The translations under genes were made by a program, and so were the position numbers. From Agarophyton chilense (taxonomy: Eukaryota; Rhodophyta; Florideophyceae; Gracilariales; Gracilariaceae): DNA of 49,449 nt. The notes under the pieces are model-generated. The model saw only the letters and a program-made list of their open reading frames with translations, searched no databases and was not told the DNA's origin. The stretch's first letter is position 1. Every line of letters begins with the position of its first letter. Shown piece after piece: positions 1 to 49,449 of the stretch. The DNA lies in NCBI GenBank assembly GCA_030374765.1, contig JARGXX010000042.1, positions 1 to 49,449 of the forward strand, given 5' to 3'.

Positions 1-600
1 CGTAGAGATCATCTATCATGGACTTAGATTGGAGCAGCCGCTAAGAAGTCATCGATGGTCACTTATATTATGATGGAGCCGCCCGATGTGAGCGGGGAGA
101 AGAGGCAGGGATCGCTGTTAGTTTGAATGTAGCCTTTGCTTTTCAGGAATGATGCTAATGCCTCGGAGTATATGTGGGAGGCAGGAGGGATACCGCACAG
201 GTTTCCTTTGAGTATCCCAGCTCGGCCCTTGTGTTTGTAGGAACCATCGAAGCGAGGGATTTGTCGCACGAATACAGGTGTGGAGTGTTCATATCGTTCG
301 TGGGGAATGCAGATGATATATGTCAAACTGTTCTGGTTAAAGATGGAAAGCGGCAGCTAGACACATAATGGATCTGGTTGAGGTGCATTCAGCGGTGTAA
401 GTTGTGACGCGGTCTGGATCAAAGTGTACATGTTGGGAGCATGCGGTCGCCTCGCACGTTGCATCCTGCTTTGTGTCTTGTTGTAGAGCCATCATCCAAT
501 CGTTTATAGCGGTAGGTCATTTTCAGTGGAATGGTCTTGGTTTGTGGTGGTAGTTCAGAGTTTGGAATCCATTCAGTTGTTTCGTGTTTTGTCTAGTGTT
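1..600 (-). pseudogene. Copia A reverse transcriptase, partial at window edge
   Basis: The minus strand encodes RFDGSYKHKGRAGILKGNLCG, equivalent to the copia LYGLKQSPR neighbourhood, then SHIYSEALASFLKSKGY and NSDPCLF. The same stretch in the right-hand copy (48022-48462) continues into ISVTIDDFLAA, the catalytic YVDD-like motif. Here the reading frame breaks at about 63 and the window ends. Small indels relative to the right copy lie near 65-105 and 320. Confidence 0.75.
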
Positions 601-601
601 T

Positions 602-1991
602 CTAGTTCGCCATCATGCGCTGCAGCCCAGGTGGTTTGCGTCGGTGTATCGCTTGGCTTGGTCGGTGGTTTTGGGGAGGTGGAGTGTTGGGTGTGATGGT
701 AAGAGGAATCGGTTGCGGGATGGGTGATACTGACATGAAGGCCTGTTTATTCCCTTGGTGGCCGTGGTGGTAAAGGGCGTCGAGATGGTGGAAGTAGAGG
801 CGGAAGTCGATAGAGCGGAGGTGCGTATATTGGTTGGTGTGGAGGTAGGTGATAGCCAATATACGGGTCTGTGAGATGTTGTACATGAAACGAGCAGGAT
901 CTGTGCGGGCTTCAAAATTTGGTTTTCTGTTGATGGTAGTTGGGTAGGTGTTGGTCCAAATTGTCCAAATGAAAACATGCGTGTGAGTTCGGGTGTGCTT
1001 TTGGTGCCAGATTTGGAAAGGTGTCTTTCCTGTGGCGTCATGGAGGGTAATGTTGTATTTATAGACCACATCTTTCTTGGCATCCTCCCAGAATGTCTCG
1101 TTGAGTTGGGGGAGTGGTGGAGTTTCTGCTTGGGTTGCTGTCACGATGGTTTGGTTTACTCTTTCAGAGAGCGAATTCTCTTGTGGTTTATGGGAGAGTG
1201 GTGGAGCTGTATTGTATGCCGTGTTGGTTGTACAATGCGTTCATTTCGTTGCTCTGAAATTCTCCGGCGTTGTCCGAGCGGTAGATGGATGGTGGTTGGC
1301 CCTGTTGAGCACTGATATAGGCGATGGCTATAGGGGGTTGTTTGTTTGGCGTTGCTGCGCTCTGGTATGAAGAATATGATGAGAAATTTACTTGCGATGT
1401 CCAGGTAGCTTACGTAGTGTGGGTTTCCGTGGCGGGAGCGTGTGTTTTAAAGGGGCCACATGTATCGCTGCTTATGTATAAACCTAATGTGTAGTTGTGG
1501 TGTTTGTTGGTTTTTGTGTACAAGGGGTTTCTGTTTCGCAGTTGGACAGGTGGAGCACGTAATAGGAGAGGAGCGTATTTCGGAAGGTTGTGGGTAGTAG
1601 GGGGACCGTTTTCGAATTGGCCATACGATGGATCTTGTTGAGGCTCATGTGGTTGAGTGTGACCTGCCAGTGGTAATATGAATGTGCTGTTGGATTGAGG
1701 TCGGGAGCGGGATATGTTGGTGGTATTTAGTTCAGTCAGACGGGGTGGTAGTTGGTCTTGGGTGTTTCTTGGATCGAAACGCTGGGGTTTGGCCCTAATA
1801 TGAGCGGGTTTTTGGGGCCGGAATATGGTATGGTTTTTGGGTTGTGCGGGGCGCTTGCGCCGTGTGATTGTTTCGGGCGCCAGAGGCATTGGGGGATTTA
1901 ATGGTATGCAGAGTATAGGAGTGGTTGTTTCTATGGAACGGTGGCGACTATGAGGGGCAACTGTGGTTTTTGTAAGTTTAGGATAAAACAT
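602..1991 (-). pseudogene. Copia A integrase (broken)
   Basis: Around 1290 the minus strand encodes RSDNAGEF, the second catalytic Asp motif of copia integrases. Around 1160 it encodes SERVNQTIV with the catalytic Glu, and at about 1100 FWEDA followed by YNITLHDATGKTPFQIW, the conserved C-terminal part of the core. The first Asp falls in a different frame within 1410-1991, after LGLYISSDTCGPF. The domain is spread over several frames, so it is inactive as written. Weak RT-linker sequence follows below 1000. Confidence 0.7.
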
Positions 1992-3609: not shown

Positions 3610-3613
3610 AATC

Positions 3614-23833: not shown

Positions 23834-24635
23834 TCAACCAAAATGTTTCTCGGATCTTTTAGTTTCCGAAATATCCTGAGGGTTGAAGTTGAGTTTGTCA
23901 GTAAATAGCGTAAGCTGAAGAGCGTCTATCTTCTTTGTGAGTAGATCTGCAAGGTTGGAGTTTCCAGGAACCCAAGATATTTTGTCCACTGCACCAGTCT
24001 GAAATTCATATTGGACGCAGCTAACGTCTCCGCGAATAGACTTGTCAATAGAGTTTTTCTGCATCAAGAGTGGTGTGAATAAATCCTTTGATTCAACTGC
24101 AATTCTCAGTTTAACATCCAAATCTGACAGCTCCGGGTATGCCTTCTTTGCTTAAGACGGTTCTTAAGTCATCTTCGCTACCATGAGGTGCTATTCGTTC
24201 TTTTAGCTTCAAAGAGCCATGGTCATTAGTCTTGATTTTGTAAAGTGTGTGACTATTGATTATATTTGAGTTCGGAGGAACTTCGTCGTGTGTGACAGGG
24301 CGCACAGTCTTGATGAAGGTTTCCTCTTCTAACTTGTATGCATTGACTAGAGGGTATTGGTGGAACCCTTGTGCGTGGTGCTTGAGGAATGGCTTATTCC
24401 CGAAATGCTTTACCATTGACGACTGAACAGCTTTCTCAGTGCTAGTGACTTGTAAATCAGGCAGTGTTGAACTAGAGCTAGAGCTAGCTGTAAGTGCATT
24501 GTTGTAGTTCCAAACTTCCTTTATCATATCTAGGAGTTCTTTGTCGCCGTCCTCATAATAGTTGTTTAGACGACCATCTTCGTCTGCTGAATGCACAGTT
24601 CCTGGATAAAAATGCGCAGCCATGGGCCAGAGCAC
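23834..24635 (-). pseudogene. Element C RT start fused to RNase H end by deletion
   Basis: 24111-24635 holds the linker and the beginning of RT: TVRPVTHDEVPPNSNIINSH, LYKIKTNDHGSLKLKERIAP. At about 24120-24150 the sequence jumps, in a different frame, to PELSDLDVKLRIAVESKDLF, IDKSIRGDV and ISWVPGNSNLADLLTKK, the last part of a copia RNase H. The whole catalytic RT and most of RNase H are absent. The junction lies between GIP and AYPELSD. Confidence 0.8.
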
Positions 24636-24741
24636 TGAAACAATGTGTCCAACTGACGGTTTATCATACGGAGAGTCCGTCGATAGTACATCATCAGCAG
24701 CTGCATTCTCATGATACGATGTAGCCTGGGAGTCAAAACAT

Positions 24742-25933
24742 CTACTTGGTACTATATTCCGGACTTGCTTCGGCAGTCGTTACAGGCAACGTGCCTGCAG
24801 AACTACGCTGTTCAATAGAGAGTTCATCTATCGAGCCCATTCCTTCCTGTACTAGTTGGGCGAAGCTCTCTTTAGAAAGTGCTGGCCAGGTATCTTCAAA
24901 GGCGGCAATAATTTCCCGACCCTTGCGTCCTGGAACGGTCACTGAGCGAGCAGCTCTGTTGACTAAGAGGATTGGTTTGGGATCCGTCCACTTTCCTCTC
25001 TTTTCATAGTCTTTCTTTTGGTAGACTTCAACAAAGTCACCAACTGCGATTGGTGGTTCAGTCACAGAATTTGAGCGAAGAATTAGCGCTAGTTTGCGGC
25101 GTTCTTGTAGCTGGTCACGAGCAATGCGAACATCGTCAGGTATAGCAGTTTTGTTAGGCTCGGCGGCAATAGGATTTGAGAAGCCTTTCGCTAGTTCAAA
25201 TGAAGACAAGTTGTTGTTACCGTAAAGATCGTTAGAAATACACAGAGGCTTGTATGCAGCTACTTTGGGGTCAAACTCGGAACCAGCATCCTCTTTTAGG
25301 TTAATAAAGATGCTGCGAAAGATGTTATGCTTAGACACTATCGCATTTTTCGAGTGCCTGGCAATAGGCACTCGATGAATCGGTATTCCAAGCTTCTTGG
25401 CGTAGCGCTTGAACGATCCGACTTGGAAGGCTTTGTCTGCACGAATAGAGTCAGGGTACCAGAACTGGGATAACCAGGAGGCTTCAAAGGCAAAAATAGC
25501 CTCTGTAAGACTTGTTGAAGTTACTACAAGAGCACTTGAATATCTTGTAATTAGATCCATCAAGTGCATTTGCAGCATCTCATCAAAAAAAAAGATCCAC
25601 ACATAAAACCTCGTTGTAGTTCTTAGAAAGGGAACTAATGGAAACCTTGAGACTGGGCTGCGGCACCGCTGCGGAGCGACAAGCAGTGCAGCGATTGATC
25701 ATTTCCGTGAGCTACGACTTTACGGTCTCAATCCAGATTCCATTCCTCTCTAGCAAGAGCTTGTAGTCACTATAGCTTGCATGGCCACATACGTGTTTGT
25801 AGGCCTTGTCTATAATCTTCTTTACATCACACCATGGTGTGGTGTCAAGAGTTACTGCAGAGGCTCGAAAGAGTAGAGCCGTCATTGCAGTGAGATGTAA
25901 AGATTCCCAATGCCGAGTAGCTAAGGAAGCCAT
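24742..25933 (-). pseudogene. Element C integrase, catalytic Glu changed
   Basis: The zinc-binding part begins VCGHASYSDYKLLLER. A frame break in a run of eight T near 25582 follows, at the first Asp strand (CVDLFF), then MDLITRYSSALVVTSTSLTE and SIRADKAFQ (second Asp). The helix expected to carry the Glu reads ARHSKNAIVSKHNIFR, with GTG (Val) where Glu is expected. The rest continues through NDLYGNNNLSSFELAKGF and a C-terminal domain with PPIAVGDFVEVYQKK and ARSVTVPGRKGREII. The 287-codon frame is otherwise open. Confidence 0.78.
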
Positions 25934-26012
25934 TATTGATTATGGAAAGGTGGTCTCGGTGTCCGTGAGAGACGAACATAAGTGCATTTCTGCCTATGTG
26001 CTCGGTATTAGC

Positions 26013-27312
26013 TTATCGAGTCACGTTTCTTCCAATGACCCAGTGGGGTGATCCGTCTAGAACAAGGTGCTTGATCCGAACTGAATTACCGTGGTCAGAT
26101 GTCGCAGTGAGGGCAATTGATCCTAGTATGTGACGTGCTGAACTGGTGTGCCGGCCAGTTCCGTACTGCCAGTGCGTGTGTCCGTTGAGTGCCAGGGGTA
26201 TGGCATCTAGCTTCGGGTTAGCTGGCAATCCGATGTGATCGGCTAGTAAGTTCAGTTCTATTTATCCAATTGCGGAGAACGATGCTTCGTCGTCAAGCAG
26301 TGGTCCGAGTTCGACCAGAGATGTATCGGTACTGGCGGATGAGCTAGTCAGAGTTGCCATATTAAATGAGACAGTCTTCCTCTTAGACTTGTCTCTGCTG
26401 TGCTGATCATGGTAAGGTGTGTTTCCAGTGCAATTAGAGTGACGACCGTTTTCTTTTGACCCAGATGGGGCATCAAATGACTTCATATGCGATGGGAATG
26501 AGCTGTCGGGATAGTGGTTGCGCCTCCAGTGTCCATATTTTCTGCATTCATCACAGGGATACTTTAAAATGGAAGATTGTCCCTTGTAACGGCTTCTGTG
26601 ACTGCGAAGATGTTCTCGAGTATGGCTTGTTCTAGCAGAGCTGGCAACAAGCGATCCAATTTCGCTGTTTGGGGAGGTCTTATCGCAGTGCTTAATGACC
26701 GAGGCTACTGATTGATCCGTGATAGAGTTGATAAACTCTTCATTCGACGACTGCAAAATGAGGTTCTCATCAGATGATTCGCCTGCTGCCATAACGGAAA
26801 CCCGTTTGGAGTCATCAATGGCGGAATTAGATAGTAGCATTAAAGCAGTAATGCACTCGGGTAGCCTGATAGTAGAAGATATGGAGTTGAACTTTGGAAC
26901 TTGTGTCGAGAATCGAGACTCGAAGTTCTTCATGGTCTCGGTGCTGCAACGGCGAGTATTCCATAGCATATTGAGCGCGGGAAGCTTCACTTACTATCGA
27001 GAGGGCATCCTTCTGATATATATTGCCCACGAAGAAGTCTACTTCCCAATCTTCAATCAGCTCAGTCTGTGACATTCCAGTGCGAAGATCTTTTGCACGG
27101 CCATAAAATTGAGATTTGATACAAACAGCCTGCATTGCTGTCGGCATCTTGCTGCTATTAGAGTCTGGGAGAGTTTTGTGAAACGTCTGCCAGAGCTTGA
27201 CTGCATCTTGATATTCTTCCTGGTCACCTCTCCCATCAGTCCATGGAGGGGATCTCACATCCCAGGAGAACTTGGTCCTAGACGAAAAGTTGGCTTAGAA
27301 TGCTGGGCCCAT
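26013..27312 (-). pseudogene. Element C Gag and protease (broken)
   Basis: The ATG at 27312 gives MGPAF then a stop. Downstream are WTDGRGDQEEYQDAVKLWQT, KSQFYGRAKDLRTG and YQKDALSIVSE, which match element D's Gag. A frameshift near 26990 leads to LPECITALMLLSNSAID and a CxxC-x4-H-x4-H motif (CDECRKYGHWRRNH). Protease follows as LGPLLDDEASFSAIG, a stop (TAA, about 26262), then HTHWQYGTGRHT and LDGSPHWVIGRNVT. In this lineage PLLDDGAPYSAIG is the active-site segment; here Gly is Glu. Confidence 0.75.
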
Positions 27313-27635: not shown

Positions 27636-28963
27636 GAAGCATTCACGTTAGTCGGTTATCACAGTTTTTATGAATATAATCCGTTCATTGTAACAATTCC
27701 TATCATTGTCGATGACAGTACACATTCATCTTTAGTGCTCAGTCTGCTTTTTCCCTTAATAAGATTTCTACACCAATCGTGCATTTGACTAACTTTACTT
27801 CTTCAATCAACACTTTTCTTTGAAAAACAAAGTATTGAGAGTGCTACCAAATAAAAGAAGAAGCTTATTTATCTTCGTAATCATCTTCGAGAACTCATAC
27901 AAGTGCGTACGTTAAGTTTTTTTCAAACTCTTTGTAAGATTTTAAGTTGTGGTCGAGATCTGTTTGGCTACGTTTCCCCTTTCCAAAACAGTTTTAACAC
28001 TACAGTCAAAGAACGTGGTATTTCTTTGTCATCGCAGATATTTCGAAATATTTACAGTGCTTCCTTCCAGTTATCAGTAGTTGTTTCGTTATGAATATTT
28101 AAAGGAGCCTGCCAATTTGGGCAAACTGTATATCAGATGAGACGTTCAGTCTAACCAGAGCTAGGGCTGCCCGCACATGGGAAGAGAGGCGGCCTGAGCC
28201 GGAAGCAGCCACTAGTATTGCGTGCTTTTTCTCAGCCGTTCCACTGGCTTTGGCTCAGCCGTGCCATCGTCTCATAACTCGCTTCGGCACGAGAACTCTC
28301 AGTAAAAATAATAGAGAAAGCTGGCCGCTGCTTCCAACTGCGAACAGATCCAGCACTGTTTGTGCAGCCAATGAGAAAGGAGCCACTGACGTCTTTTCAT
28401 TGGCTGCCGGCCGTAGTAGGAACGGTCAGGTGGTCGCCGGCGCCTCCACTTAATGAGCCCGAGAATCGCGACGCTCCCGTACTTAATCCCGGACTCTGTT
28501 CACATCCTCGTATGGTGCGACTCACACATCTTCAGTCGTAGCTTCAGTCTCAGCTTCACTCACAGCTTCAGCCGCAGCTTCAACAGCACCTCGAGCAAAT
28601 AGCTTCAGCGGGTTTTTTCAGTGTTCCCAAGCGCGACTCAAACAACTATCTCAGTCGCAGCTTTAACAGCAGCTTCAGCTCCAGTGTCAGATTCTTCAGC
28701 CAAGGAAATGTTTGAGCTTTTGCCTTCGTATCGTCTTTCGGACGAAATACCCATGAAAGCACCCAGAGACCAATAGCCCATTTTACAAGCCGAGGGGATG
28801 CTTCGGCTATGAGATGCTCGCTTGAGCTTTACCATCTTGTGAATCTCAGAACTGCCCTCGGTTGTAATCGGATATGTACATTTCTACGGAGCGCTACAAC
28901 TATCTACTGCACCAAACTCACCTTCAGACCTCCATGTCGTCCCCATCGGCACCTTGCGACACA
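27636..28963. other. Stretch without a recognised gene
   Basis: AT-rich up to about 28100, then more balanced. Short ORFs (27903-28094 +, 28250-28453 +, 28638-28835 -) show nothing recognisable. A simple repeat occupies 28528-28690. The retinoblastoma-related gene ends on the minus strand at 29011, so this is its 3' side. Confidence 0.4.
28528..28690. repeat. AGCTTCAG-type imperfect simple repeat
   Basis: The unit CAGYCNCAGCTTCA recurs irregularly (TAGCTTCAGTCTCAGCTTCA, ACAGCTTCAGCCGCAGCTTC, CAGCAGCTTCAGCTCCAG). It is degenerate, with a period of about 6-18 bases. Confidence 0.6.
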
Positions 28964-29010
28964 TTACCATCTTCCGCATCTCCTGAATCGGTCTCTGTAC
29001 TGCTCACAAC

Positions 29011-29960
29011 TCAACTTGATCTTCCGATGACTTCTTGTACCTCCGGCCGCACTGCGGTACATCTTGCGTCGGCAACCGGCCCGTCGAAACTCAGTGGTCG
29101 ATACTGTCTTCTCTCCCGGCTTCTGTGACTCACTGCAACATTTCCGATAGGACTTTCCCCAAAGGCGAATGGTGACCGAGTACCCGGTGTCATTGAACCC
29201 AGATCGTTGCCTTGACTTCTCCGCACGCTGTGCTGTCAACTCAGAGCCATATTCCTCGTGGACGGTGACATGGGAGAAACAAAAATCGATCCGATTTGTT
29301 TTGGGGATCTTTGTGTCTTCATGATGCCCATAGCACTCTGCAATAATTTACGATCAATATCCCCAAACATTTTCTTTTGTTCCCTTCCCTGACGGCGGCT
29401 TGCCCGTCTGGAAAGGTCATTCAAACCTTCTGAAGCTTGGTCGTCTGCCTTACTTGCTCGCAATGCTTCCGCTAATCTCTTTGCATCTCGGCCTTCAATA
29501 TCTTCGCCCGTCAGTACGATGAAGTTGCTCATGTAAGGCACAAACACTTCGTTATAGAAGCGAATGATATCGCCTGTCTCTTCAGTCGTCGATTCCGGTC
29601 GTGGCCCACTATCATCTGCAGCATCTTCCGCCAACAAATGCCCGAAATCTCCGAGAAAAATGTTATGGGACACTGGTGGAGAATTGCTCCGAAATGTGGG
29701 ATCACTTGTGTGCTCCAATTGATTGTAGTGCCACACGATATGGCGGAACTGCAGTTGGATATGTTGGATCTGGGCCACGCCATCTATCACAAACAGGATG
29801 ATCAAGTCAATATGTCTGTTGACTGTCAAATTCCATCTGCACCACAGAGCATACTGCACGCTTTTCCACACTGCCGAACGAAGGTTGGTTTGGGTGTCCA
29901 AATCAGGGGATCGCAGGCAAGAGAGAGAGAGCATTGCTAAGCAACGAGTGCGCGCGGTTG
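29011..29960 (-). pseudogene. RBR: Retinoblastoma-related gene, 3' part: pocket B and C-terminal domain
   Basis: 29236-29934 encodes pocket B: SAVWKSVQYALW, NLTVNRHIDLIILFVIDGVA (the NRHIDQ signature), FRHIVWHY, then DIIRFYNEVFVPYMSNFIV, the hallmark retinoblastoma (I/V)I-FYN-VF motif. After a linker come SPKQIGSIFVSPMSPS and, one frame over (29011-29226), SMTPGTRSPFAFGESP and YRPLSFDG, matching the C-terminal domain that binds E2F-DP. The stop is at 29011. A frameshift near 29230 separates the last two parts. The 5' part of the gene lies at 32606-34609. Retinoblastoma proteins repress E2F targets and hold cells in G1. Confidence 0.85.
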
Positions 29961-30274
29961 GCAGCGTGCCGGGGCATTATGCGGGCGTACTGCTCGTCGC
30001 GCAAGACCGTGAGAAGGGTTTCGAGTGCATGGTTGGGTTTGTTGAGCAAAGAGACGGCGTCCATGACGGCGCACATGAGCGTGGTGTGATGAGCGGTGAA
30101 GTTGGGCTGATCGGATGCGCGCAGGGACGAGAGCAAGTCGAAAAGTAGGGTGGCGACTACTTCAAAGTGATTTTCGTGAGGGTGATGGAGCACGGCAAGA
30201 AGCGCGGAAAGGATGGCGTGCGTATGAATGTCGACAGCTAGTGACAGGATGCCATGTAATGCGCACGCGAGCAC
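29903..30274 (-). CDS. Orphan helical (HEAT/ARM-like) ORF fragment
   Basis: A 123-residue frame on the same strand as the retinoblastoma gene but in another frame, overlapping its pocket B start by about 30 bases. Content is almost entirely helical and leucine/alanine-rich: LACALHGILSLAVDIHTHAI, FEVVATLLFDLLSSLRASD, MDAVSLLNKPNHALETLLTV. That looks like helical-repeat protein, not like a pocket domain. There is no ATG near its left end and no matching continuation. It is probably a piece of another host gene; no family was assigned. Confidence 0.45.
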   Translation of the reverse strand: MLACALHGILSLAVDIHTHAILSALLAVLHHPHENHFEVVATLLFDLLSSLRASDQPNFTAHHTTLMCAVMDAVSLLNKPNHALETLLTVLRDEQYARIMPRHAANRAHSLLSNALSLLPAIP

Positions 30275-30455
30275 TTACGTGCTCTGACGCCCGTTCCAAC
30301 TTGCATTCGTAGTTAGTGCCTTTACATGAGCAATTAATATTGTCTACATAAACACAGCAAGATGAATCTGCAGGTCATCTGACTACACGGACGCCGGGGC
30401 ACCCAAGTTGTCTAAGAAACATAGCTACAGTTGTTACCCCGCTCAATACTTAGTT

Positions 30456-31790
30456 ATGGGCCCAGCACCAGCCTCATCCTCCGGCACGCGCAGCCGTCCA
30501 CGTTTTTCTTAGGACCTGAAAAACGTCCTGTGGACTAACGGCAAAGGCAACCAGGAAGATTATGCAAAGTCAGTGGCACTATAAGACTTCATTTCACGAG
30601 AAATTGCCCGACTCAAAATCGAGCAAGATAGCGTTACCGCTTCGCAGAACAATTCTGAAGAGCCAGCTGTATGGAAGGTCTCGAGATCTGCGTTCTACGA
30701 TCAGTGACGAAGATGTTGCTTCAGATGAAGAAGCCGACAAGATCGTCAAAACCATCTATAAGTGAGATTCGCTGTCTGTTGTCAGTGAGGTTTATGGGAA
30801 CTTTATCACGCTTCTGAATATGAAGCGCTCCGGCAATCAAACGTTCCCCAATTTCGAACTTAGGTTAGATGCTTCGGCGTCTAAGTTTCACGCTCAATCT
30901 GAATCCGCCAAGTTGCCAGAGTCGCTGACAGCCTTCATGCTTTTGAAAAACTCAGCTGTCGACAATGGGCAGCGTGTCTCGGTGCTTGCGGCGACATCAA
31001 CGAACAGCACTTTGACTGCTACTGCGACGACGACGGATTACCTCAACACTATGTCGTATGAGAAAATGGCGTCTGTCTTTCGCCAGTGTGATGAAGTCCC
31101 TCATGCACACTCTATCGGCTCCCCACAGCCGCTTTCAATCGCTGCCAATGCAGCACAGCTCCTGCCGCGCAACTAGAACCGCCCCGACCGTCGCAACAAG
31201 GGTAGACTCTTTTCCATGCGCTATCCTTGTGACATTTTCAAGAAGTTTGGTCAACGGAAAAAGAACCACAACCCGGATGGTTCCTTACCCTCCCATGTGC
31301 GCTGCCTCGACTCCCCAGCTCCATCGCTGAACACATCGCCGCCGAACAAGTATGGACAGCAGAATGATGCCCCGAAGAAGGTTGTTTCTTTTAACTGTGC
31401 CACCATGACCAGTTCAACGGCAGCTGTCTCCGCAAATCCCGCGCCTGCCCGTCTCGGTCCTCTCCTAGATGACGGCGCACCGTACAGTGCCAGCGGACAA
31501 GTCGAGCTGCATCTCCTGTCTATCGAACTCGGATTGGCTCCCGACACTCCACATGAAACGATTCCTGCATCGCTCAACGGCCACACCAGGTAGCAATATG
31601 ACGTGGGTGCTCATGCAAGCCTCCAGCGCAGCATTCTTGGCTAGATAGTCCTGCGCGCCAAGTCTGACCTCGGAAATGACATCAACATCACCCACTTAGT
31701 GCTCGAAGGATCATCGCAGTGGGTGATCGGGAGAAATGTCACCCCCAAGGCGAACATTGTTCATTTTGGTATGAACGCTCTGTGCTTCGA
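30456..31790 (+). pseudogene. Element D Gag and protease (broken)
   Basis: NVLWTNGKGNQEDYAKSVAL, then after a frameshift FHEKLPDSKSSK, LKSQLYGRSRDLRSTISDED (30562-30765) and, past a stop, DSLSVVSEVYGNF. 30820-31176 gives LPESLTAFMLLKNSAVDNGQ and YEKMASVFRQCDE. The Cys/His motif survives only as YPCDIFKKFG. Protease (31440-31740) reads LGPLLDDGAPYSASGQVEL, closer to the functional form than in element C, and LEGSSQWVIGRNVT. At least one stop and two frame breaks. Confidence 0.75.
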
Positions 31791-32560
31791 TGCCAACGGC
31801 GCGAACGATTCTTTGAAAATCGTTGATGACGGCTTCCTATCCTATATCTCTGTAGAACGCTTCGCATCATCCAAAGGATACCTTGTATTTACTCTCTACT
31901 GTCTGTCCGCTGTTGCGCTCGAGAAGTCGCCGTGGGGCGATGTGGAGGCTATCATTGACAATGTGCACGCGCATGTTTGCGGCCACGCCTGCTTTTCGGA
32001 CTTCAAACTCTTGCTAAAGCGCAACAAGCTGTGAAACCGCACTGTCGCCCAGTACGTGGCAGACATGGTGTAAGATTGCACATCCTGTCGGTCTGCTGCC
32101 GTTCCACCTCCAACAAAGAAGGTGTCGATCAGCTCGTTGAACTCGACATTCAACGACCTCTTATGCAATTGATCAATTGTTTCTGGATCGATTTTGCGTG
32201 CTACATTCAATGGACAATGTCTCCCGGCACTCCACTGCCCACGTGGTCAAGTCCACGTCTATGCAGGAGGCAGTTACCGGGTTCAAGGCAAATAGGGTGG
32301 CTCACTTCTGGCACCCACAAGCCACCAGAGGGGACAAGCGTTTCTCCTTGGAGCATTTCGAGATCATTGCAAGCAGCTTCACATCCCGCTCCATGCCGTG
32401 CCGCCCCGTCGCCATGCTAAAAACGCAACTAATTGAAAGAATAACATCATTCGCAATGTTTTCTTGAGGCTCAAGTCGGCAGCCAGCGCAGACATCAACG
32501 CTGATCGCTCTGCAGAGAGGGTAAGTCGGCGACGGCACTTGGCGGCGGTCTCCGACAACG
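31791..32560 (+). pseudogene. Element D integrase (broken)
   Basis: 31900-32034 has the zinc-binding start VEAIIDNVHAHVCGHACFSD. After frame changes, 32177-32467 gives MDNVSRHSTAHVVKSTSMQE, FKANRVAHFWHP and RGDKRFSLEHFE (second Asp). The Glu helix region (about 32418-32450) is altered, with a stop codon where the family has ESKH. FLRLKSAASADINADRSA then follows in another frame and the element sequence fades near 32560. Confidence 0.72.
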
Positions 32561-32605
32561 CCAGCAGAGAGCGGCGCTTCTTCTCGTCGGGGCAACGGAG
32601 TGGGG

Positions 32606-34609
32606 CCAAGTCTTCCTAACAACTTTCCTATTCTAGTGCTTGCCAGGGTACACATCTTTTCAAAAAAGAACTCAAGAACTCTTGCTCTGGCTTCAACATC
32701 TCCGTACAGTCGTTCCGGACGCCCCATTTCTTTCAACCTTAGTGTGATCATCGCCTTTGTTTCTATACGTTGTCCTTCTTCGATCTTCTGCTTTTGCGGC
32801 GTAATCGGGGATTTTTCTACACTTTCTGGCTGTTCATTATGTTCTGGTGACTGATCGGACATCTGTGTGTTCACCAACACTCGCTTTGTCAAATTTCTCT
32901 TTTGGTTAGAACGGGTTCTTCTCATCTTGCGTACAAAGGAAATCTCGACTACATGCTTGAAGAACTCGTACCAGAGGCGAGTCATGTCTCCATGCCATCC
33001 ATTCTAGAATACGAGCGTCACAGCTATTCGAATGATTAACCAAGCGATGTGGCATCTGTGGTACAAGGGTATAGAATGTTTACAGCGCCTCGTAAGCTCA
33101 AAGGGTGATACATTGAACGCACGATAGGCAACTGTGAAAACGTGAAGATCCCTTCTACCCTAGGCATAGACAGCGGTATCCCACGCGAAAGTGAGAAAGC
33201 TTTTGTGTAGGATGTAGTTGTGAAGTACATTGCTATTAAACTTTTCAGGCTGTTCGCGTAACCGACGACGTTCCTTCTCGAGAATACCTTCGATGGTTGA
33301 GAAACAGATAGCCAGAGCTTCACGTTTGTACCGGGAATTATTCAGATCCGTAATCACGTCACAAGGCATCAGAGTACCGTCTGCCAACATCAATGATAGC
33401 GTATAATGGGCGACCACCCCCAGTGACCCTTCTCAGATCGTGCGATATAGCCACACTTTCTGGCGGGCATGTGAGACACGTTTCGCTTCGAGTTTCTGGT
33501 CGTTTCTGCTTCAGCTCACTGATCCATGTTGCAGATCGATTGTTGTCAGTGCCGGGAGTGAGAGCAATGTTTGATGATGGAGGTATAGGAGGCACGATAG
33601 TCGTACAGTGCGGCGTAACGACAGCTACTGTGGCCAGTGCCTCCAATGCATCAGGGTGAGTGGACAGATAGCGTGAGAAGCGAACCGGGAATGACAGTGA
33701 CGAATGCATGGCAGATTGAGTGCGCGTGCGACACGGCGTAGGCGGGCGGGCTTATGATGGGGTGACGGCAAAGTCGGAAGCCTTCCGAAGATTTCGGGGG
33801 CGTGGGGTAGGTGCTGCAGACTGGTTTTCGCCGTCCATACGACGTTTGCGATTGAGAGGTGTGGAAGGCTGTGATGAGGCTTTAGGCGTTGATGGTGCTG
33901 CGTGGGTAGTGGGCTGGGCCGGAGATCGTACGGGCACAGACGGGTCCTTGTTGCGTTTGAACAGTGCAGCGACGGATGGTTGTACTGGGCGGAGGCTTTG
34001 CCACGAATTTGATGTTCCAGCGCATGAAGACTGACGTGGTAAGGGGACCGAGAGTGGTAAAGCGGCAACGGCAGTAAGCTGTGGCGCATGAAGAAAGATA
34101 CGTTCGTCGCTTACAATACGGTCATCGACAGCGGTGAGTTGTTGTGCATACACTTCATCTATTGACTTGCCATGGGCATCGATATCATCTTCAGTAGCCT
34201 GAAAGAACGATAACCGAGTGAGGATAGCGGGGGGTAGGAGAGTTACAACTGTGCGTTGGTATTGGTGCAACTCGCTCGACACGGCGCATGTGATACGAAA
34301 TACGGCGTTCTCAGGATTGTATGCTGCAATGAGACCGGACTGCGTGAGGCAGGCGAGCAGCAAATGGTAGGTTTAAAAATGGTGGTACCAGGACCCGGAC
34401 GGAGATGAGAGCGAGGCCTTTGCAATGATGAACAAGAGCCATGCGAGGGTCGTGAAACAGAGGGGTGATTGTGAAGCAAACGGCGACCAATGAGAAAGCG
34501 TAGCTTTCTCCAAACGTTTGCTGCAACCATGAAGGCGGTGTGCGATGCACGACCGTATGGTGTTGCTTTTTTGTAGCTCTTGAGACCGCTACCATCAAAG
34601 CTCGGCCGG
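32606..34609 (-). pseudogene. RBR: Retinoblastoma-related gene, 5' part: N-terminal domain and pocket A
   Basis: N-terminal cyclin-like domain (34,600 to about 33,950): SWLQQTFGESYAFSLVAVCF, LALISVRVLVPPFL, YHLLLACLTQSGLIAAYNPE, IVSDERIFL. A Pro/Ser-rich linker ends in a TAA at 33752; the frame then continues to TPGTDNNRSATWISELKQ, the start of pocket A. Next come REALAICFSTIEGILEKERR, LHNYILHKSFLTFAW, FNVSPFELT, then CDARILEWMAWRHDSPLV, a near-textbook pocket A end. The spacer leads into LEFFFEKMCTLASTRIGKL, the first helix of pocket B, where the gene is cut. Lesions: frameshifts near 34368, 33418, 33045 and 32915, and stops at 33752 and 33160. Confidence 0.83.
34563..34609 (-). repeat. 47-bp repeat, partner of 38041-38087
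   Basis: At the 5' edge of the retinoblastoma-like reading frame. See 38041-38087. Confidence 0.85.
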
Positions 34610-35184: not shown

Positions 35185-35460
35185 GAGATGATGCTCCGTG
35201 ACGAAAAACTTCGAGTACTTTCGGACACTAGATCGAATTGAAACAGATCACACTTTTCAGTACTTGGACGCTGGTGTCGCCGGCGAACACCGAGCTACCT
35301 TGCGTCTTTGCCATCAACGTTGGTCGAGAAATATCGCCCTCTGTGTGTTGAAGCGTTTCTCTCACCGTTCGTTCTGTGTACTTTACATGCGTTTCAATCC
35401 TTGGGTCTTCCCTCGAAATAAGCAAGGCATCTCACACAACAAATAACCCAATCATTTAAT

Positions 35461-36597
35461 ATGGACAATGAACTTGTTGCACACCAGTTTTCGGGGTTTC
35501 TCAAGAGAAGGCGATTGCACTACACAAATCGCAGCAACCAAAACAGAAGAAGCTTAGATGAGTTTCCCCGCGCTCTCCGACTACCGCCGCTTGGAAACCC
35601 TCAAGCAGGGAGTCTTCCAAGCTTTCAATCTCTATTCGGCCGCTCGGAAGATTCAAGACTTCCATCCGGCCATCGATTTATTTCTCAACGACTACCGCCG
35701 CTTGGAATATCTCAACCGGGAAGTCTTCCGGGTTTCGAATCTTCATTTGGCCGCCCAGGCGATTCCAGACTTCCATCTGGCCATCAATTTAGATCTCTTC
35801 GACTACCGCCGCTTGGAAACCCGCAACCACAAAGTCTTTCGAGTTTCCAATCTCTATTCGGCCGCCCATTCGGCCGCCCGGAAGATTCAAGACTTGGATT
35901 CGGTCATCAACCCACTTCTTGCGATGTCCGTCGGAGTGGAAGTGGAACCGCTCGTCCCGTGTCTCTCGAACGGTTTCAGGAAGCAAGGGGCACTCACCCC
36001 ATTCCTGCACTCCAGTCCCACGGAAATGAACACTACACGGAAATCCCACACCAACACCGCCATGGGGAAACAGCGTGGCGAAGAAAAAGTGTTCTGAAAC
36101 TACCTCAGGAGCGCAAGAGTCGGGATGAAGGCGCCCCAGAGATTGCACAGAGATTTTGTTCAGATAGCATTCGCCAATCTCCAGTTCATGTGCCTTATCC
36201 TGCCCCGGAAGCGTCGTGTCTCGTTCAAGAAGTTTCCCACCGGTCTCCTGAGCACAACCTCCGTGAAGACTCGTTTTTGCCGGAGAGTAAAGCTCCTGCT
36301 GATTGCTCGGCTTTCCCAAATCATCGACCAGGACTCGAAAAACTTGGCATCACAGGCTCCCGTACCAAACGTCCCCAGATTTTCCAGTGTGAGTGGTGTA
36401 CGAAGTCGTTTGGTCGCAAGCATCATAAGGTGCGACACATCCAAGCCATTCATCGAAAAGTGAGTTACTTCAGCTTTCACTGCGGATCTCAATCACGTCG
36501 GTCTTTTCTAACATTTCTCTTTGCAATTGCTTTTGAAACCATCTTCTTTGACATATTCATATTGGATCGGGTAGCCAGGTTTTGCAAAGAGCACTGA
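35461..36597 (+). CDS. Repeat-rich C2H2 zinc-finger protein, copy 1
   Basis: ATG at 35461. N-terminal basic segment (FLKRRRLHYTNRSNQNRR), then three 37-residue tandem repeats built on LPPLGNPQ-x-GSLPSFQSLFG and RPEDSRLPSGH (about residues 40-155), then a Ser/Arg-rich middle. A C2H2 finger near residues 308-326 reads CEWCTKSFGRKHHKVRHIQA before IH (C-x2-C-x12-H-x4-H). Directly after HRK the DNA reads AAAAGTGAGT (gt at 36460), a good splice donor, so the last 45 residues are probably intron and further fingers may follow. A nuclear DNA-binding role is inferred from the finger only. Copy 2 lies convergently at 36798. Confidence 0.6.
   Translation: MDNELVAHQFSGFLKRRRLHYTNRSNQNRRSLDEFPRALRLPPLGNPQAGSLPSFQSLFGRSEDSRLPSGHRFISQRLPPLGISQPGSLPGFESSFGRPGDSRLPSGHQFRSLRLPPLGNPQPQSLSSFQSLFGRPFGRPEDSRLGFGHQPTSCDVRRSGSGTARPVSLERFQEARGTHPIPALQSHGNEHYTEIPHQHRHGETAWRRKSVLKLPQERKSRDEGAPEIAQRFCSDSIRQSPVHVPYPAPEASCLVQEVSHRSPEHNLREDSFLPESKAPADCSAFPNHRPGLEKLGITGSRTKRPQIFQCEWCTKSFGRKHHKVRHIQAIHRKVSYFSFHCGSQSRRSFLTFLFAIAFETIFFDIFILDRVARFCKEH
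35579..35923 (+). repeat. 111-bp tandem repeat in zinc-finger gene, three units
   Basis: Units start GACTACCGCCGCTTGGAA at 35579, 35690 and 35801, exactly 111 bp (37 codons) apart. The third carries a 12-bp internal duplication (CATTCGGCCGCC), giving FGRPFGRPEDSR. Copy 2 has two such units on the other strand (about 37180-37370). Confidence 0.85.
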
Positions 36598-36797: not shown

Positions 36798-37601
36798 TCA
36801 GTGTTCTATCGCCTGAAGGTTATGCTCAGGAGAACTGCTTGGAAACTTCTTGCGTGGAATACAACGCTTGCGGGGCAGAACAAGGCACGGGAACTGCATA
36901 TTGGTGAATGTTTTCTGAAGAAACCCCCTGTGAAATCTCTGGCGCTCCTTCTTCCAGACTATTATGTTCCTGAAGTACTTCCAGAACGTTGCCTCTTCGC
37001 CACACTTTTTCCTCATGGTGGCTGTTGTGTGGCATTTCCGTGGGACTGGAATGAAGTCTTGGTTGGGGTAAGCGCAACTTGCTTCCTGAGACAAATTGAG
37101 AGACACCGGACGGAAGGTCCCACTTCTACTCCGTTGGACATCACAAGAAATGGATTTATGGCCAAATCCAAGTCTTGAATCTTCCGGGCGGCCAAATGAA
37201 GATTCCAAACTTGGGAGAGTTCTCGGTTGAGATGTTCTAAGCGGGTGTTCTCGGAGAGAGCTGGTTTGATACACGGATGGAAGTCTTGAATCTTCCGGGC
37301 GGCCGGAGATGGATTCTAAGCGTGGAAGACTGCCCGTCTGAGGGTTTCCAAGCGGCGGTAGTTTAGTTGGAGAGCGGGGGGGAAACCCATCTGGGAGTCT
37401 TCTGTTTTCGTTGCTGCGATTTGGGTCGTGCAGCCCACATGCCGAAAGGCCTTGTGAGTAATTAGTATACCTATCTTGATACCGCTGGCAATCGTAAACT
37501 GAGAGAAATTCTCTAGTACGCGAAATAACAAGACACGCATTATAAGCTGTCTTCTTTTCCACACTTTTCTCGCGTTCTATCAGGAAGCAAAACCGGATCA
37601 T
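36798..37601 (-). pseudogene. Zinc-finger gene copy 2, inverted, finger lost
   Basis: Minus-strand frame of 267 codons (ATG at 37601). From about residue 55 it matches copy 1: NRSNENRRLPDGFPPRSPTK, LPPLGNPQTGSLPRLESISG, RPEDSRLPSVY, SLESSFGRPEDSRLGFGHKS, SCDVQRSRSGTFRPVSL. Past that point the homology to copy 1 moves to another frame (36826-37077: EEKVWRRGNVLEVLQEHNSL, EEGAPEISQG), so one frameshift has occurred. The frame stops at 36798 before any zinc finger. There are only two 37-residue units. The first 50 residues do not resemble copy 1, so the true start is unsure. Confidence 0.6.
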
Positions 37602-38040
37602 GTCCTCAAAAGACGGAGAAAGAAACCTCGGTCACGAAATCACAGGAAAGGGTGATGTAGTCCACACCACACGATAACAAAGAAGAAGCGAGCTGTCCTA
37701 AACATAGTAGCGTTGTTATATTTTTGTTACGTTGTGAATGGCAATTATTTCTTGGAAAGATTTTGCTCCGAGTGGCGGACGCATGTTGAGTGGTTCGAAA
37801 CTCTGTCAGAATGGCGGGAGTCCACGCCGGCAACAGAATTGTTCACCTTACCCACCCCACTTGAAGGTGAACAATTGAAGCGGCAACCCCTGCATCTGCA
37901 GGCCGTTGTTGTTCGAATATTTTCTCTCTCAGGACACGGAATGACGCGCCCAGAGGGCACCAGAAATCCTTCAAATAAAAGGCCCATGTACCTCGCGCCC
38001 AGCTTGCAGTGGCATCATCTTCATCTAGCACGTGAATACC
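37602..38040. other. Upstream side of zinc-finger copy 2, no recognised gene
   Basis: A plus-strand frame (37713-38090) and two minus-strand frames overlap; none is recognisable. An inverted pair, GTTCACCTTACCCACCCCAC and GTGAACAATT nearby, is too loose to name. Confidence 0.3.
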
Positions 38041-40431: not shown

Positions 40432-40960
40432 AAGGTCTGACATCGAGAGAAAAATGGCAGTCCTCACAGGTACATGTTGTGTTCGATGGCGCGGCAACTT
40501 CAGATGTTGCGCGCTTTTTCTTTGCGTACGAAAACTTTGTCACCCTAGGCAAGTCCGACGAGGATCGGGCAGTGCAGCTGTTATGCCACCTTGAGGGTGA
40601 CGCGTTTGACTTCTACTACCGCAATTTCGCTGTTGATGGCAGTCTCACTAGCGCAGCGAGCAATTACGGTTTCGTAAAGGCTAGGATGAATACGGATTTC
40701 AAACGGACTCCAAAGCCGGAAGATGAAGTTCATGAGGCCGCTTTCGGACGACTCGACCCTGCCGATATTCAGAGGTCGCTCTTGCAGTTAGAAGCTCTCT
40801 ACAAGAGATTTGGGTTCAACGAAACCGCGTCGTTTGGACTTTTTTGCAACGCAGTCGCCGCCGTTCCACACATGGCGCAGTTCGTGATGTTCGGGCTCCG
40901 GATGACTATCAGTCGTTGAAAAAGGCTATAAGAGATTACGAAAGCGGCCGAAGGCATTTT
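40419..40960 (+). pseudogene. gag: Element F Gag (two frame changes, no in-frame ATG at start)
   Basis: Capsid-type sequence: VARFFFAYENFVTLGKSDED, AVQLLCHLEGDAFDFYYRNF, FVKARMNTDFKRTPKPEDEV, LEALYKRFGFNETASFGLF. The frame is open from inside the LTR (GTG at 40368), but the first in-frame ATG comes only at the ARMNTDF position, far inside the domain. Near 40890 the homology passes to the -1 frame (APDDYQSLKKAIRDYESGR) and near 40940 to the -1 frame again, entering the long Pol frame. The frame changes may be indels or sequence errors, since the LTRs look young. It would form the particle shell. Confidence 0.7.
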
Positions 40961-43900
40961 TGTCTCCGCCTGATCTTAGTGTCTCACCTCAGGTGCCAAC
41001 GAGGAAGATACTCCGCCGTGCCGATGCTCCGTCCAGAACTGCACAGCAGTTGGAGAGCAAGGTGGACCAGTTGGCGGGAGAGTTCGAAGAGCTGACAATG
41101 CTCGTGAAGAAAAAGTTCGAGGGTCCATCGGGATTATCTGACAAGGACTGGACTTGCAGTTACTGCAACCAGCCCGGTCATGGAGCGAACCGCTGCCCAT
41201 CTAACCCTCACTGTAATACGAGGTGTAGACGATGCGGCAAGTTTGGCCATCAGAAAGAGACCTGTTGGTCTAAATCGAAGCAGGAAGAGAAGCGAGCAGT
41301 TGGGTTCAGTGGAGTGAAGTCGGAATCCGCAGAAGGACTGAAGATCAAGAAGAATGAAGAAGAAGATCATGTGGCCGTGGTACAGGAAGCTCCGGCCGTG
41401 AAGGATGTGGTCGCCGCAGCGAAGAGGAACGCAGACGGTGAGGCCCTACCGAAGCAGCCCCGGACTGGAATCATGGACATTGATGCCTTGGTTAACAAGA
41501 GCCGTGGAGCCTTTCGCAAGGTTGCTGCCCTGAAGGGCAAGAAGAAATCGAGGAAACCGAAGAAGGGCAAAGGGACAGCACAAGGCCTCCAGGACCAGGT
41601 GGGCAAGTATAATGTGATGGCCGAGTTGGCCTATGCCTCGTCTGGCCTAAGCTTTGGCCAGTTGTTGCGTGGGGATGCCGATGAGGCAAGGAAGCTGTTG
41701 AAGCACCTATTGTCGGGGAAAGTTCCGATAAGGCACGCTTCCGTCCTCCATGCCACTAGCCTACCACTTCGCCTGAAGGTAGTGGCCATCAAGCTGTACG
41801 GCACTGACGCCAATGCCCTCTTGGATTCGGGGGCAGTTCCGAACCTCCTGTCCTGGGAGATGTGTGACCATTTGACCCTGACGCCCTCGCCGACGAGCAG
41901 GAGGGTGACGGTGGCCGATGGGAGTGCCGCAGACGTTCTGGGTTGCGTGAAAGGAGTTTCAGTTTCATTTGGGAAGATGGGAGTCCCCTTGGACTTCTTG
42001 GTGGTGAAGAATACGCCGTTCGATGTGATAATTGGATGCCCGACCCTCGAGGCCCTGCAAGCTCAGCTAGACTTTAGCAGACGGCAGGTGAGCCTCATGA
42101 TCGGGGCGGAACAAGTCCTGTTGCAGTTGTACAATGAGCCACCGGTGGTGGACGGAGCTCGCACCGATTGCGAGGACTTTGTGTCGCCGGACGACTCGGA
42201 ACCGGATGTGTTTCCCGCTGAGTCTGGATCTTCCAGTTCCGGCTCAGCGGGCGAGTCAGAGAGCGAGTCGGAGTTGGTACTAGCAGTACTCGACAGGGAG
42301 CCTCATGAGCCTGACCTGGCGGGCGTCGATTCAGACGTCCAATCGTCAGGGGAAGACGAAGAGAGTGCACGGTCGGCGTTGTTGTCCTCGAAGATGGCGC
42401 ACCTGCGCCCAGACGTTCAGAAGCAGATGACGGACTCCCTGAAGGAGACCGACATTATTGCCTGGAGTAGTGGCGATCTCAGTCCAGCGGATGTGCCCGT
42501 TAAGCACAGTTTTGAGCTGACGGACGAGAAGCCGCTCTACTCAAAGGTGCGAAGGATGCCCCCGAGGCACAACGCCGTGATCAGGAAAGAAGTGAATGAG
42601 CTATTGAAGACGGGAATCATTACCCCGTCCAGCTCTGCTTGGTCCTTTCCAGTGGTCATAGCGACCAAGAAGGATGGCAATCCGAGGTTCTGCGTTGATT
42701 ACCGACAGCTGAACCGGGTGATGAAGCCAGACCGCTGGCCTCTCCCGAAGATTGAAGAGATCTTCGACGACCTCGTTGGGTCGAAGGTCTTCACGACGTT
42801 AGACCTTTTCACAGGTTACTGGCAGGTCTGCATGTCGGAGGCCTGCAAAGAAAAGACGACGTTCGTCTGTCGTTACGGCACCTACAAGTTTGAGGTGATG
42901 CCGTTCGGGCTGATGAATGCCCCCTCTACATTTCAGAGAATGATGGATGAGGTGTTGCGGGACCTGCCCTTCGTTATGGTGTACGTTGACGACGTCGTCA
43001 TCTTCTCCAAGACGATGGATGAGCACCTGGCCCATTGTCGGGAGGTGTTCCGCAGGATTGGTCTCGCTAGTTTGAAGGTGAAGGTGACGAAGTGTAGCTT
43101 CGCACAATCTGAGATCAAACTCCTTGGCCATGTGATTGATGGGAACGGCATCCGGGTGGACGTTGATAAGATCGCCGACATTGTGGAGGCCCCCGTCCCG
43201 AGAAACAAGACAGAGCTCAGGAGCTTCCTTGGTCTGGCGGGGTACTATCGAAGATTCATCAGAGACTTCGCCAAGAGTTCGGCGGTGCTGCATGCCGCCA
43301 CTTCGGCGAAGAAGAAGTTCGAGTGGAACCCCGAGATGCAGGTCGCGTTTGAGGATCTCAAAAAGAAAATGACGACGCCGCCGGTGCTAACCTTTCCCGA
43401 CTTCGACTCTCCTTTCATTGTCGAGACTGATGCTTCGGGTGTGGCATTGGGGGCTGTCCTCAGCCAAAAGAAAGAGGATGGGAAAGTGCACCCCATCCAG
43501 TACGCGTCTAGGTCTATGACGCCTGCGGAGAGGAACTATGCTACCTGTGAGAGGGAGGCATTGGCAGTTGTGTTCGCCCTGAAGAAGTTTCGGGTGTACC
43601 TGCTGTCGTCAGTCCCCTTCACGGTTCTTACCGATCACCAGGCCCTTCAGTATGCCTTCCGGAAGAAGGATGTGCATGGAAGGTTGGCAAGGTGGCTGGA
43701 CCTATTTGCGGAGTACGAGTTTGAAATCAAATACCGCCCGGGAGTCGCCAATGGGGCCCCCGATTACTTGTCGCGGATCCAGGCCGAGGAGAAGGGACCT
43801 GGACGTGATGAAACCGGACGAGAACAAGGGTTAGTCGCGACCATTACTTGGTCGGACCCGCGTTTGGACGGACTGGAAGAAGGGCTGCTAAACGTCGCGA

Positions 43901-45144: not shown

Positions 45145-45180
45145 CACCGGTAGGAAGAGAAGTGGTCGAAGGTCTTTGTT

Positions 45181-47269: not shown

Positions 47270-48808
47270 TTTCCCTGCACGATGATGGTAGTTTGGGGGT
47301 GGCGGCACGATGTTGAGGGCGTTTCGAAGTCGAGTGAACGTCTGTTTCTTGAGCGCTTTCGTCAGAATGTCTGCGAGCATGGATATGGTGGGGGTGTGCT
47401 GGATAAGGATGCGCTTGCTTTTGATGAGGTCATGGAGGTAATGTCTGCGGAGGTGGCAATACTTCCGGTGCTTGGTGGGGGCCGTTTGGTATGCTACCAA
47501 GATTGGGGCATTATTGTCCATGTGTAGTAGAGTCGCGGACTTCTGGGAGTAGCCGATGTAACACAGCAGTCGGGGCAGCCACATTGTTTGCTGAGAGGCC
47601 GCTGACGCCGCATGATACTCTGCTTCGCATATCGATAGAGCGATCGACTTCTGCTTTGTCGACTGCCACATTACTGGGCTTTTTGTTAAGAGGTGTACTA
47701 TCCCAGAGTATGACTTTCGATCTGACTCATTTGCGAAACCGCGTCTGCTTATGATACTAGAGTGGAAGGGGCGGCCTGCTTGTAGAGAATTACGTGGCTT
47801 ATTGTGCCTTTGAGGTATTTCAGAGAGTAGCGGAGTTGTTCTCAATTCTTTTGTGTTGGAGCTTTCATGTTCGTAGCCAGGCGGCTTATAATGTGGGCTA
47901 TGTCCGGTCTTGTGGAATCAGCTACATAGCGAAGCTCTCCAATTCTTTGGCGGTATGCGAATTCTTTCTCCGGTGGCAGTGCTGCAGATTGGTTGGGTGG
48001 ATTTTTGGGGTTTGGTTCGATTTATGGGGTTGGCTTGGGACTACAGTGGAGAAGGTTGTGTTTTTCGAGGATTGCACGGATGGTATGAGGTTGGGAGATG
48101 TGGATGGCACGGTTTGGGAATCTTTCAATGCGCCAATTGAGAAACAGTTTTGGTGGGCCTAGTCGTCGTATCTTGTATCTGGACCGGATAGTGTCGTAGA
48201 GATCATCTATCATGGACTTGAGTGGAGCAGCCGCTAAGAAGTCATCGATGGTCACGCTTATTATGATGGAGCCGTCCGATGTGAGGCGGATGAAGAGGCA
48301 GGGATCGCTGTTAGTTTGAATGTAGCCTTTGCTTTTCAGGAATGATGCTAATGCCTCGGAGTATATGTGGGAGGCAGGAGGGATACCGCACAGGTTTCCT
48401 TTGAGTATCCCAGCTCGGCCCTTGTGTTTGTAGGAACCATCGAAGCGAGGGATTTGTCGCACGAATACAGGTGTGGAGTGTTCATATCGTTCGTGGAGGA
48501 ATGCAGATGATATGTCAAACTGTTCTGGTTAAAGATGGAAAGCGGCAGCTAGACACATAATGGATCTGGTTGAGGTGCATTCAGCGGTGTAAGTTGTGAC
48601 GCGGTCTGGATCAAAGTGTACATGTGGGGAAGCATGCGGTCGCCTCGCACGTTGCATCCTGCTTTGTGTCTTGTTGTAGAGCCATCATCCAATCGTTTGT
48701 AGCGGTAGGTCATTTTCAGTGGAATGGTCTTGGTTTGTGGTGGTAGTTCAGAGTTTGGAATCCATTCAATTGTTTCGTGTTTGTCTAGTGTTTCTAGTTC
48801 ACCATCAT
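47270..48808 (-). pseudogene. Right-hand copia RT and RNase H (one main frameshift)
   Basis: 48022-48462: SYKHKGRAGILKGNLCGIPP, NSDPCLFIRL, then SVTIDDFLAA, the catalytic YVDD-like motif, and IRRLGPPKLFLNWRIER. Near 48,000 the frame changes (EFAYRQRIGELRYVADSTRP, end of RT). 47264-47845 gives RNase H: SYSGIVHLLTKSPVMWQSTK, SIALSICEAEYHAA (catalytic Glu), HMDNNAPI (Asp), HTPTISMLADILTKAL. The first catalytic Asp (usually in a YSDADFA motif) is not visible; RRGFANESDRKS stands in its place. This is the best preserved copia polymerase in the window. Confidence 0.83.
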
Positions 48809-49449
48809 GCCAACGTGGAATGATGAGATGGATTGGTCTTTTTCTTTAGAACATGAACGACTTCGTTCTTGAAACGAGAGCAGCGTTTACAGACCCACTG
48901 GTTAGACAGACCAAACGCTGCAAACCAGTTTATCAGAAACTTTTGCTGCTACTTCAGCTGTGATCTCGGTCGTGATTGTGAGCCAAAACTAACCGCTGTG
49001 ATCATCTTTTACTACCAGAACATACAAAAAGCCATCCCCGCCACGTGACATGTAGCAAAAAGTCGAAGTGAAACAATTCATTAGGTTGTAGACATGCAGT
49101 TTGTTAGATTAAAGCTACAAAATAGAAAAATTGAGTGATGCGAATCCACATTGAATACATTTTTCTAAATGTGCATTACAAAAATGCCGAGAAGTGTTTG
49201 AATGCTCACCGTATGAAATCTAGGCCTAAATAGAATTCTGAAAACACGGGAGCAGTGTTCAGCAGGGCATTACATTCCTAATATGAACTATCCGGGTTTA
49301 GTAGAGAACCATAACCTTTTCTCAGCTGCCTCAACTCTAAGCACACTCGGAAGCAGCATATTCTAAGCTGTAATAGCGTACGATTTTTCTTTTCTTTCCT
49401 CACCATTGTATGAATTGCACTTGTACCCAGAAAGTCAAATATGTACTTT
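48809..49449 (-). pseudogene. Chromovirus integrase fragment, duplicate of 7841-8475
   Basis: From AACGTGGAATGATGAGATGG onward it aligns with 7841-8475 at about 90% by eye, including the integrase beta-strand region and the upstream zinc-binding area. It is cut by the window end. It shares several of the same stop positions, so the two copies probably decayed in part before duplication. Confidence 0.8.

Follow-up and report, generated by a model that had tools for sequence, protein, structure and literature searches.

A putative retinoblastoma-related pseudogene, split inside pocket B, in a large tandem array of the red alga Agarophyton chilense

Contig JARGXX010000042.1 of the red alga Agarophyton chilense (GenBank assembly GCA_030374765.1), which is contig C42 of this 79.76-Mb, 135-contig genome assembly and was analysed whole as the window (49,449 bp), carries on its minus strand a retinoblastoma-related (RBR) sequence that is split inside pocket B. 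The single rbcL match of the genome, on C39, is 97% identical to Gracilaria proteins, which are the best hits with a name; Gelidium and Pterocladiaceae come next at 95-96%, the highest score went to a longer, unnamed protein at 84%, and rbcL thus points to a red alga that is most likely Gracilaria or near to it. Has the alga lost this cell-cycle repressor, does the split sequence still work, or is it something else? We found that the observation is true and has a mostly ordinary cause, which is that the window holds one copy of an amplified pseudogene, and that the array of such copies is the more interesting object. The approximately 50-fold tandem amplification is the notable fact here, and it is not visible from the window alone. 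We give a rough probability of 0.85 to the history that a dead RBR duplicate received an insertion by template switching and was then passively amplified in tandem.

The split copy, its parent and its insert

The initial annotation had read the minus strand as one RBR gene broken inside pocket B, and the motifs that it quoted were all located again in the frames and at the places it gave. Pfam analysis placed RB_B positions 23-143 at 29,239-29,976 (E=5.1e-17, above cut-off) and the first RB_B helix (positions 2-26) at 32,305-33,003 (E=0.053, below cut-off), on either side of a gap of 2,710 bp (29,890-32,599). RB_A was matched by a single fragment (positions 75-128 at 33,163-33,432, E=5.4e-4, 20.3 bits against a cut-off of 25), and DUF3452 was absent from the N-terminal pieces of the window copy, so the domains that had been proposed stood above cut-off for RB_B, stayed sub-threshold for RB_A and failed for DUF3452. 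The two RBR parts (Table 1) align to one contiguous stretch of contig C4 with a 2-bp overlap at parent ORF 2674-2675, and because each part matches this stretch on one side of the same point, both halves belong to one gene and not to two, which confirms the split. The coding portion of the 3' part (28924-29889) consists of 966 bases that align without gaps to parent ORF 2674-3639.

The uninterrupted copy that the annotation proposed to look for was found on C4, where RBR is a single 1,212-aa stop-to-stop frame with no intron in the frame. Its Pfam domains are RB_A (8e-23) and RB_B (1.8e-25), both above cut-off, with DUF3452 sub-threshold; its pocket matches Protein Data Bank (PDB) chains of RB1 and retinoblastoma-like protein 1, and a EukProt protein is 60% identical to it over 90% of the part searched. 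The C4 gene has RB_A and then RB_B in order, like the known pocket proteins of this family, whereas in the window copy the frame is broken and pocket B is interrupted. Loss of RBR from the genome was rejected on this intact gene with its two pocket domains, and, as far as its sequence tells, RBR is present and intact in this genome and the repressor has not been lost.

Could the window copy still make an RBR protein if the 2.7-kb insert was spliced out? The halves are collinear, and introns occur in 23-29% of genes in four Gracilaria assemblies according to Table 1 of PMC10388701, but the 5' part has stops at parent codons 299, 506, 704, 731 and 789, further stops lie at codons 1109 and 1184, and frameshifts were found at ORF positions 822, 1906, 2180 and 2401, all of them outside the insert, and the parent is one open frame. 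These lesions together with the insert leave no continuous coding frame across both pockets, and they refute a full-length spliced RBR protein from this copy, so a working gene here is hardly credible. The window copy is thus predicted to be an RBR pseudogene. The 246-aa open frame, which runs from the insert into the rest of pocket B, is read as a by-product, and scans for tRNA genes and Rfam families across the window found none.

Table 1 Features of the window (positions of the whole stretch)
Feature	Position	Strand	Description
Tandem unit start	1..618	+	Recurs at 48195-48810 (97%); continues as next unit in C40
RBR pseudogene (putative), 3' part	28270..29889	-	Bulk of pocket B, C-terminal region, approximately 0.65 kb aligned to the parent 3' flank; 85% to C4 gene
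246-aa open frame	29236..29976	-	C77-derived stretch continues in frame into the pocket B remainder
C77 fragment, 3' piece	29890..30222	-	311/329 aligned bases identical to C77; 88% aa
Retroelement fragment	30223..32513	+	Nested in C77 fragment; several dispersed copies have the same edges
C77 fragment, 5' piece	32514..32599	-	79/86 bases identical to C77
RBR pseudogene (putative), 5' part	32600..34545	-	N-terminal region, pocket A, first pocket B helix; 90% to C4 gene
Truncated C2H2 zinc-finger ORF copy	35422..36580	+	Fuller copies such as L024: 442 aa, three fingers
Diverged inverted relative of zinc-finger ORF	36817..37432	-	73-78% DNA; inside 277-aa open frame 36798-37631
Second unit-start copy	48195..48810	+	Window spans about one unit

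A copia element of GalEa type had been placed in the gap, which is a captured fragment of another host gene, on contig C77 and here called C77, with a retroelement piece nested in it. The insert flanks are the two ends of one C77 stretch, the identity of the captured fragment to C77 is 92-94%, and approximately 135-139 bp of C77 are missing where the retroelement lies. The C77 frame has 530 aa and matches INTS1_R4 at E=0.025, below the Pfam cut-off, and on this weak match the gene is perhaps Integrator-like. At the 5' junction RBR and C77 have the 7-bp microhomology GCCCCAC in common, and no base is shared at the 3' junction. Depending on how the shared bases are assigned, the join corresponds to a 2-bp duplication or to the loss of up to 5 bp from RBR. 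No target-site duplication longer than 2 bp was found at the C77 join, and no transposon ends were found at the C77 junctions. For the C77 piece, microhomology without a longer target-site duplication makes template switching more likely than transposition. Microhomology-mediated template switching produces templated insertions, and here too a fragment of a distant gene sits at a short microhomology without a long target-site duplication; unlike in that system, the piece here was afterwards interrupted by a retroelement fragment and multiplied along with the array.

The nested piece is read as a retroelement fragment, and copies of 85-89% identity were found on C16, C11, C123, C28, C80, C135, C75, C23 and C109 (40 of 185 candidates scored in this repeat search), but the GalEa label found no confirmation: the insert pieces tested gave no noteworthy Pfam match, and four of six pieces are 35-43% identical at the amino-acid level, in the same order, to parts of the element at 24,111-27,294, while the other two are not. 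Full-length inserts make up 9 of the 46 matches, counting the window itself, and the remaining ones on array contigs are shorter.

Copies, common lesions and constraint

An RB_B profile search of the contigs gave 51 matches (52 candidates, all scored), one on C4 and 50 on array contigs, which means at least 50 copies of the putative pseudogene. Twenty-two copies are uninterrupted (type A, first helix included; C48:52962 was matched over positions 2-92 only) and 28 are interrupted (type B, with the match starting at position 16, 22 or 23). They sit on C40, C42-C48, C50-C52, C54, C55, C59, C122, C125 and C126, and near the ends of C121 (756-810 kb of 858 kb) and C26 (593-608 kb of 617 kb); C49 carries other parts of the unit, and these 18 contigs, C121 and C26 excluded, total 1.43 Mb. 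The copy number could be inflated if fewer real copies were repeated in overlapping or erroneous contigs, and the scatter over 17 contigs and two contig ends, as well as private indels in copies near the contig ends of C54 (66 kb) and C122 (99 kb), would agree with this. But divergence among the copies reaches 3%, they vary in structure as well (types A and B, several insert lengths), and C40 alone holds 11 RB_B matches in one 302-kb contig, so we consider such inflation unlikely.

The reading of lesions covered 30 of the 50 copies, namely 21 of the 22 A copies and 9 of the 28 B copies (one of these being the window), and every one of the 30 had disabling changes, including stop 1184. Stop 789 was present in 21/21 A copies, stops 704 and 731 and frameshift 2180 in all 20 A copies reaching them, and stop 506 in all ten that reach that site; frameshift 2401 was found in 20/21 A copies, and the one without it, the C121 copy at 756 kb, keeps the other lesions. 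The 5' half of the window copy shows the same lesion set as the A copies. Because these stops and frameshifts outside the insert are common to the copies, the RBR copy most likely died before amplification. The decay of a repressor copy that had been proposed from the window was therefore upheld as far as the copy is dead, but the insert is not its sole cause, since copies without the insert have the same lesions, and with C4 intact it is not a loss of the gene. In the C half the divergence to the parent was 9.1-9.9%, compared with 0-3% between copies, and no fixed difference separates A from B copies there, as expected with sequence exchange between A and B.

To see on which branch the changes fell, the C40 184-kb copy was compared with the parent and polarised with the P0001 outgroup, and 93 amino-acid changes were assigned to the copy branch and 8 to the parent branch, with 46 assigned to neither. 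The ratio of copy to parent changes was 13 to 2 in pocket A and 17 to 0 in pocket B. Between this copy and the parent the ratio of nonsynonymous to synonymous rates (dN/dS) was 0.44, and 0.43-0.51 for the other pieces compared; a value near half is expected if the parent alone is constrained. The copies thus show both disabling changes and what looks like relaxed constraint, which are the marks of a pseudogene. Among the 30 copies, the C half had 21 synonymous, 31 nonsynonymous and 2 stop-changing variants, with 15.3 synonymous variants expected from the substitution spectrum (P=0.06). The synonymous count was 12 against 9.7 expected in A copies alone (P=0.24) and 5 against 4.2 upstream of the break (P=0.42). 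Selection on the RBR frames of the array was rejected, as neutrality could not be rejected after spectrum correction, with the C half borderline.

Several points weigh against the history given at the start. Homogenisation after amplification could also have spread the common lesions, and the 20 of 50 copies unread for lesions leave room for an open copy. A one-sided microhomology of 7 bp, with none at the other junction, can arise by chance. The borderline synonymous excess in the C half appears in the true frame only (11 and 13 against 15.5 and 15.2 expected in the shifted frames), and without spectrum correction it is stronger (20/198 synonymous against 30/675 nonsynonymous sites). From the parent to the array majority there were 118 synonymous changes against 81.5 expected under full neutrality, which we attribute to constraint along the parent branch. 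These figures do leave a little space for weak constraint on the C half of the array.

The tandem array and how it may have spread

The array share of a contig was measured for C40 only, and units were laid out for the window and for C40 1-190,000, where window sequence at 85% identity or more covers 78.5%. The first base of the window recurs at C40 37,119, 112,050 and 153,053, which gives spacings of 75 and 41 kb, and an A-to-B spacing of 9,688 bp is repeated from C40 18,170, 215,990 and 280,859 and on C125. RB_B matches are co-oriented within every multi-copy contig except C26. The co-oriented matches, the unit junction at the two ends of the window (Table 1) and the divergence of 0-3% indicate a tandem array, and with head-to-tail units larger than 1 kb that appear homogenised it can be classed as a macrosatellite. 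Copies near the C26 and C121 ends would fit one locus.

D4Z4 is a macrosatellite that carries the DUX4 retrogene. Macrosatellites of this type likewise have large, homogenised head-to-tail units that hold gene-derived sequence, but the units here are tens of kb long, rich in transposable elements and irregular, and their gene copy is dead. A literature search on retinoblastoma pseudogenes in macrosatellites found no fitting paper among those listed, and a search on Gracilaria tandem repeats and pseudogenes found, among the papers listed, plastid-genome papers only. The V sex-determining regions of Gracilaria are described as small and repeat-rich in PMC12502185, for which reason a possible link of the array to such a region was considered, and a search of its main text for the terms retinoblastoma, tandem and C2H2 gave no match. 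The telomere word was absent from the window and from the 19 C40 pieces examined. A chromosome-end repeat of the TTTAGGGG type was found, among the matches listed, at C1:1-12527 and C2:1796566-1801948, and exact 24-mers of the TTTAGGGG type numbered 664 and 797 genome-wide on the two strands.

The RBR copies could instead be the cargo of a transposable element that multiplies by transposition, which would suit the many retroelements of the unit and the presence there of sequence from two unlinked host genes. This is very unlikely, because 0/50 copies lie on a contig without other array sequence, large co-linear window blocks recur around the C40 copies, and no transposon ends were seen at the C77 junctions.

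The array could also be a source of small RNAs, in which inverted C77 arms around the RBR C-half fold into hairpins and so silence RBR or C77-like transcripts. At C40 26,780-28,550, 400-bp arms of C77-RBR junction sequence (95.75% identical) flank the RBR C-half, and 18 of 47 C77-piece matches are oppositely oriented as in these arms, with the geometry checked on C40 only. From 3,619 RBR positions, 513 21-mers match one array copy perfectly, 175 of 541 C77 21-mers match the hairpin locus, and the genome encodes Piwi domains in 4 frames and a pair of RNase III domains in each of 2 long frames. But inverted repeats are common by-products of rearrangement, the arms are approximately 94% identical to C77, and no inverted repeat of the C77 piece was listed within the window. 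Hairpin-RNA loci made from gene fragments exist in Drosophila testis, and they are likewise inverted repeats of host-gene fragments in several copies; such an inverted repeat is present on C40, outside the window, but unlike the Drosophila loci the array is known from DNA sequence alone. We regard hairpin silencing as quite improbable. A further version, with the array as a silencing locus or selfish amplicon in which the approximately 18 inverted C77/RBR C-half repeats are kept through small RNAs that dampen C77 or the repressor, and in which the product of the adjoining open, multi-copy zinc-finger ORF drives amplification, seems to us slightly less probable still.

In the history that we prefer, that of a dead duplicate amplified passively, an RBR duplicate that reaches from 56 nt ahead of the ATG to approximately 0.7 kb beyond the stop would have arisen and lost its frame. 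Later, a template switch at the 7-bp microhomology would have brought approximately 555-561 bp of C77 into one copy, within pocket B, and the retroelement fragment would have come to lie inside this piece. Unequal exchange or break-induced replication may then have amplified the locus into an array of large units rich in transposable elements, with exchange presumably continuing between copies of the A and B types. The order is suggested by divergence, which is 9-10% from the parent for the RBR duplicate, 6-8% for the C77 capture and 0-3% for amplification and homogenisation. As to a processed-pseudogene origin of the first duplicate, the parent frame is itself intronless, and the site near 28,270 where homology ends shows no poly(A) tract. 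The RBR copies would be passengers, and cell-cycle control would rest on the C4 gene.

Other repeats of the unit and meaning of the array

The earlier view that no clear host gene family other than RBR lies in the window did not stand up, as the insert holds the C77 piece and part of a C2H2 zinc-finger ORF lies at 35,422-36,580. At least 111 matches to this ORF, fragments and inverted relatives included, were found (106 of 270 candidates scored), and a stop-free 442-aa frame occurs in at least 24 rows. The ORF likely has one intron with GTGAGT. The lone listed match outside the array contigs (C115, 47% aa) carries a stop, and a search of a large protein database gave one weak match, to a beetle protein. 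The dN/dS was 0.59, 1.09, 0.91, 0.88 and 0.65 against five relatives, 2.19 against a sixth (16 changes) and undefined against a seventh (one change), and on this spread clear selection on the ORF was rejected; the open frames in many copies may reflect recent homogenisation alone. Tandem runs with a 2,518-bp period lie at C122:38884-60185, C44:16907-25618 and C45:33230-44459. A retroelement at window 40500-46700, whose domain order we take to be gypsy-like, also repeats head-to-tail every 6,523 bp, with four units on C49:321-26090 and three on C44:86833-106080. These 2,518-bp and 6,523-bp runs beside the large units point to expansion at several scales.

RBR itself is intact in this alga. The array calls for caution with automatic annotation, which could report dozens of RBR genes that are false. 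Here a homologue of a tumour suppressor has become part of a large tandem array that was homogenised recently, and the order of events can still be read in it, with duplication that would be followed by death, template-switch insertion and amplification. The locus offers a natural case for the study of large tandem amplification in red algae.

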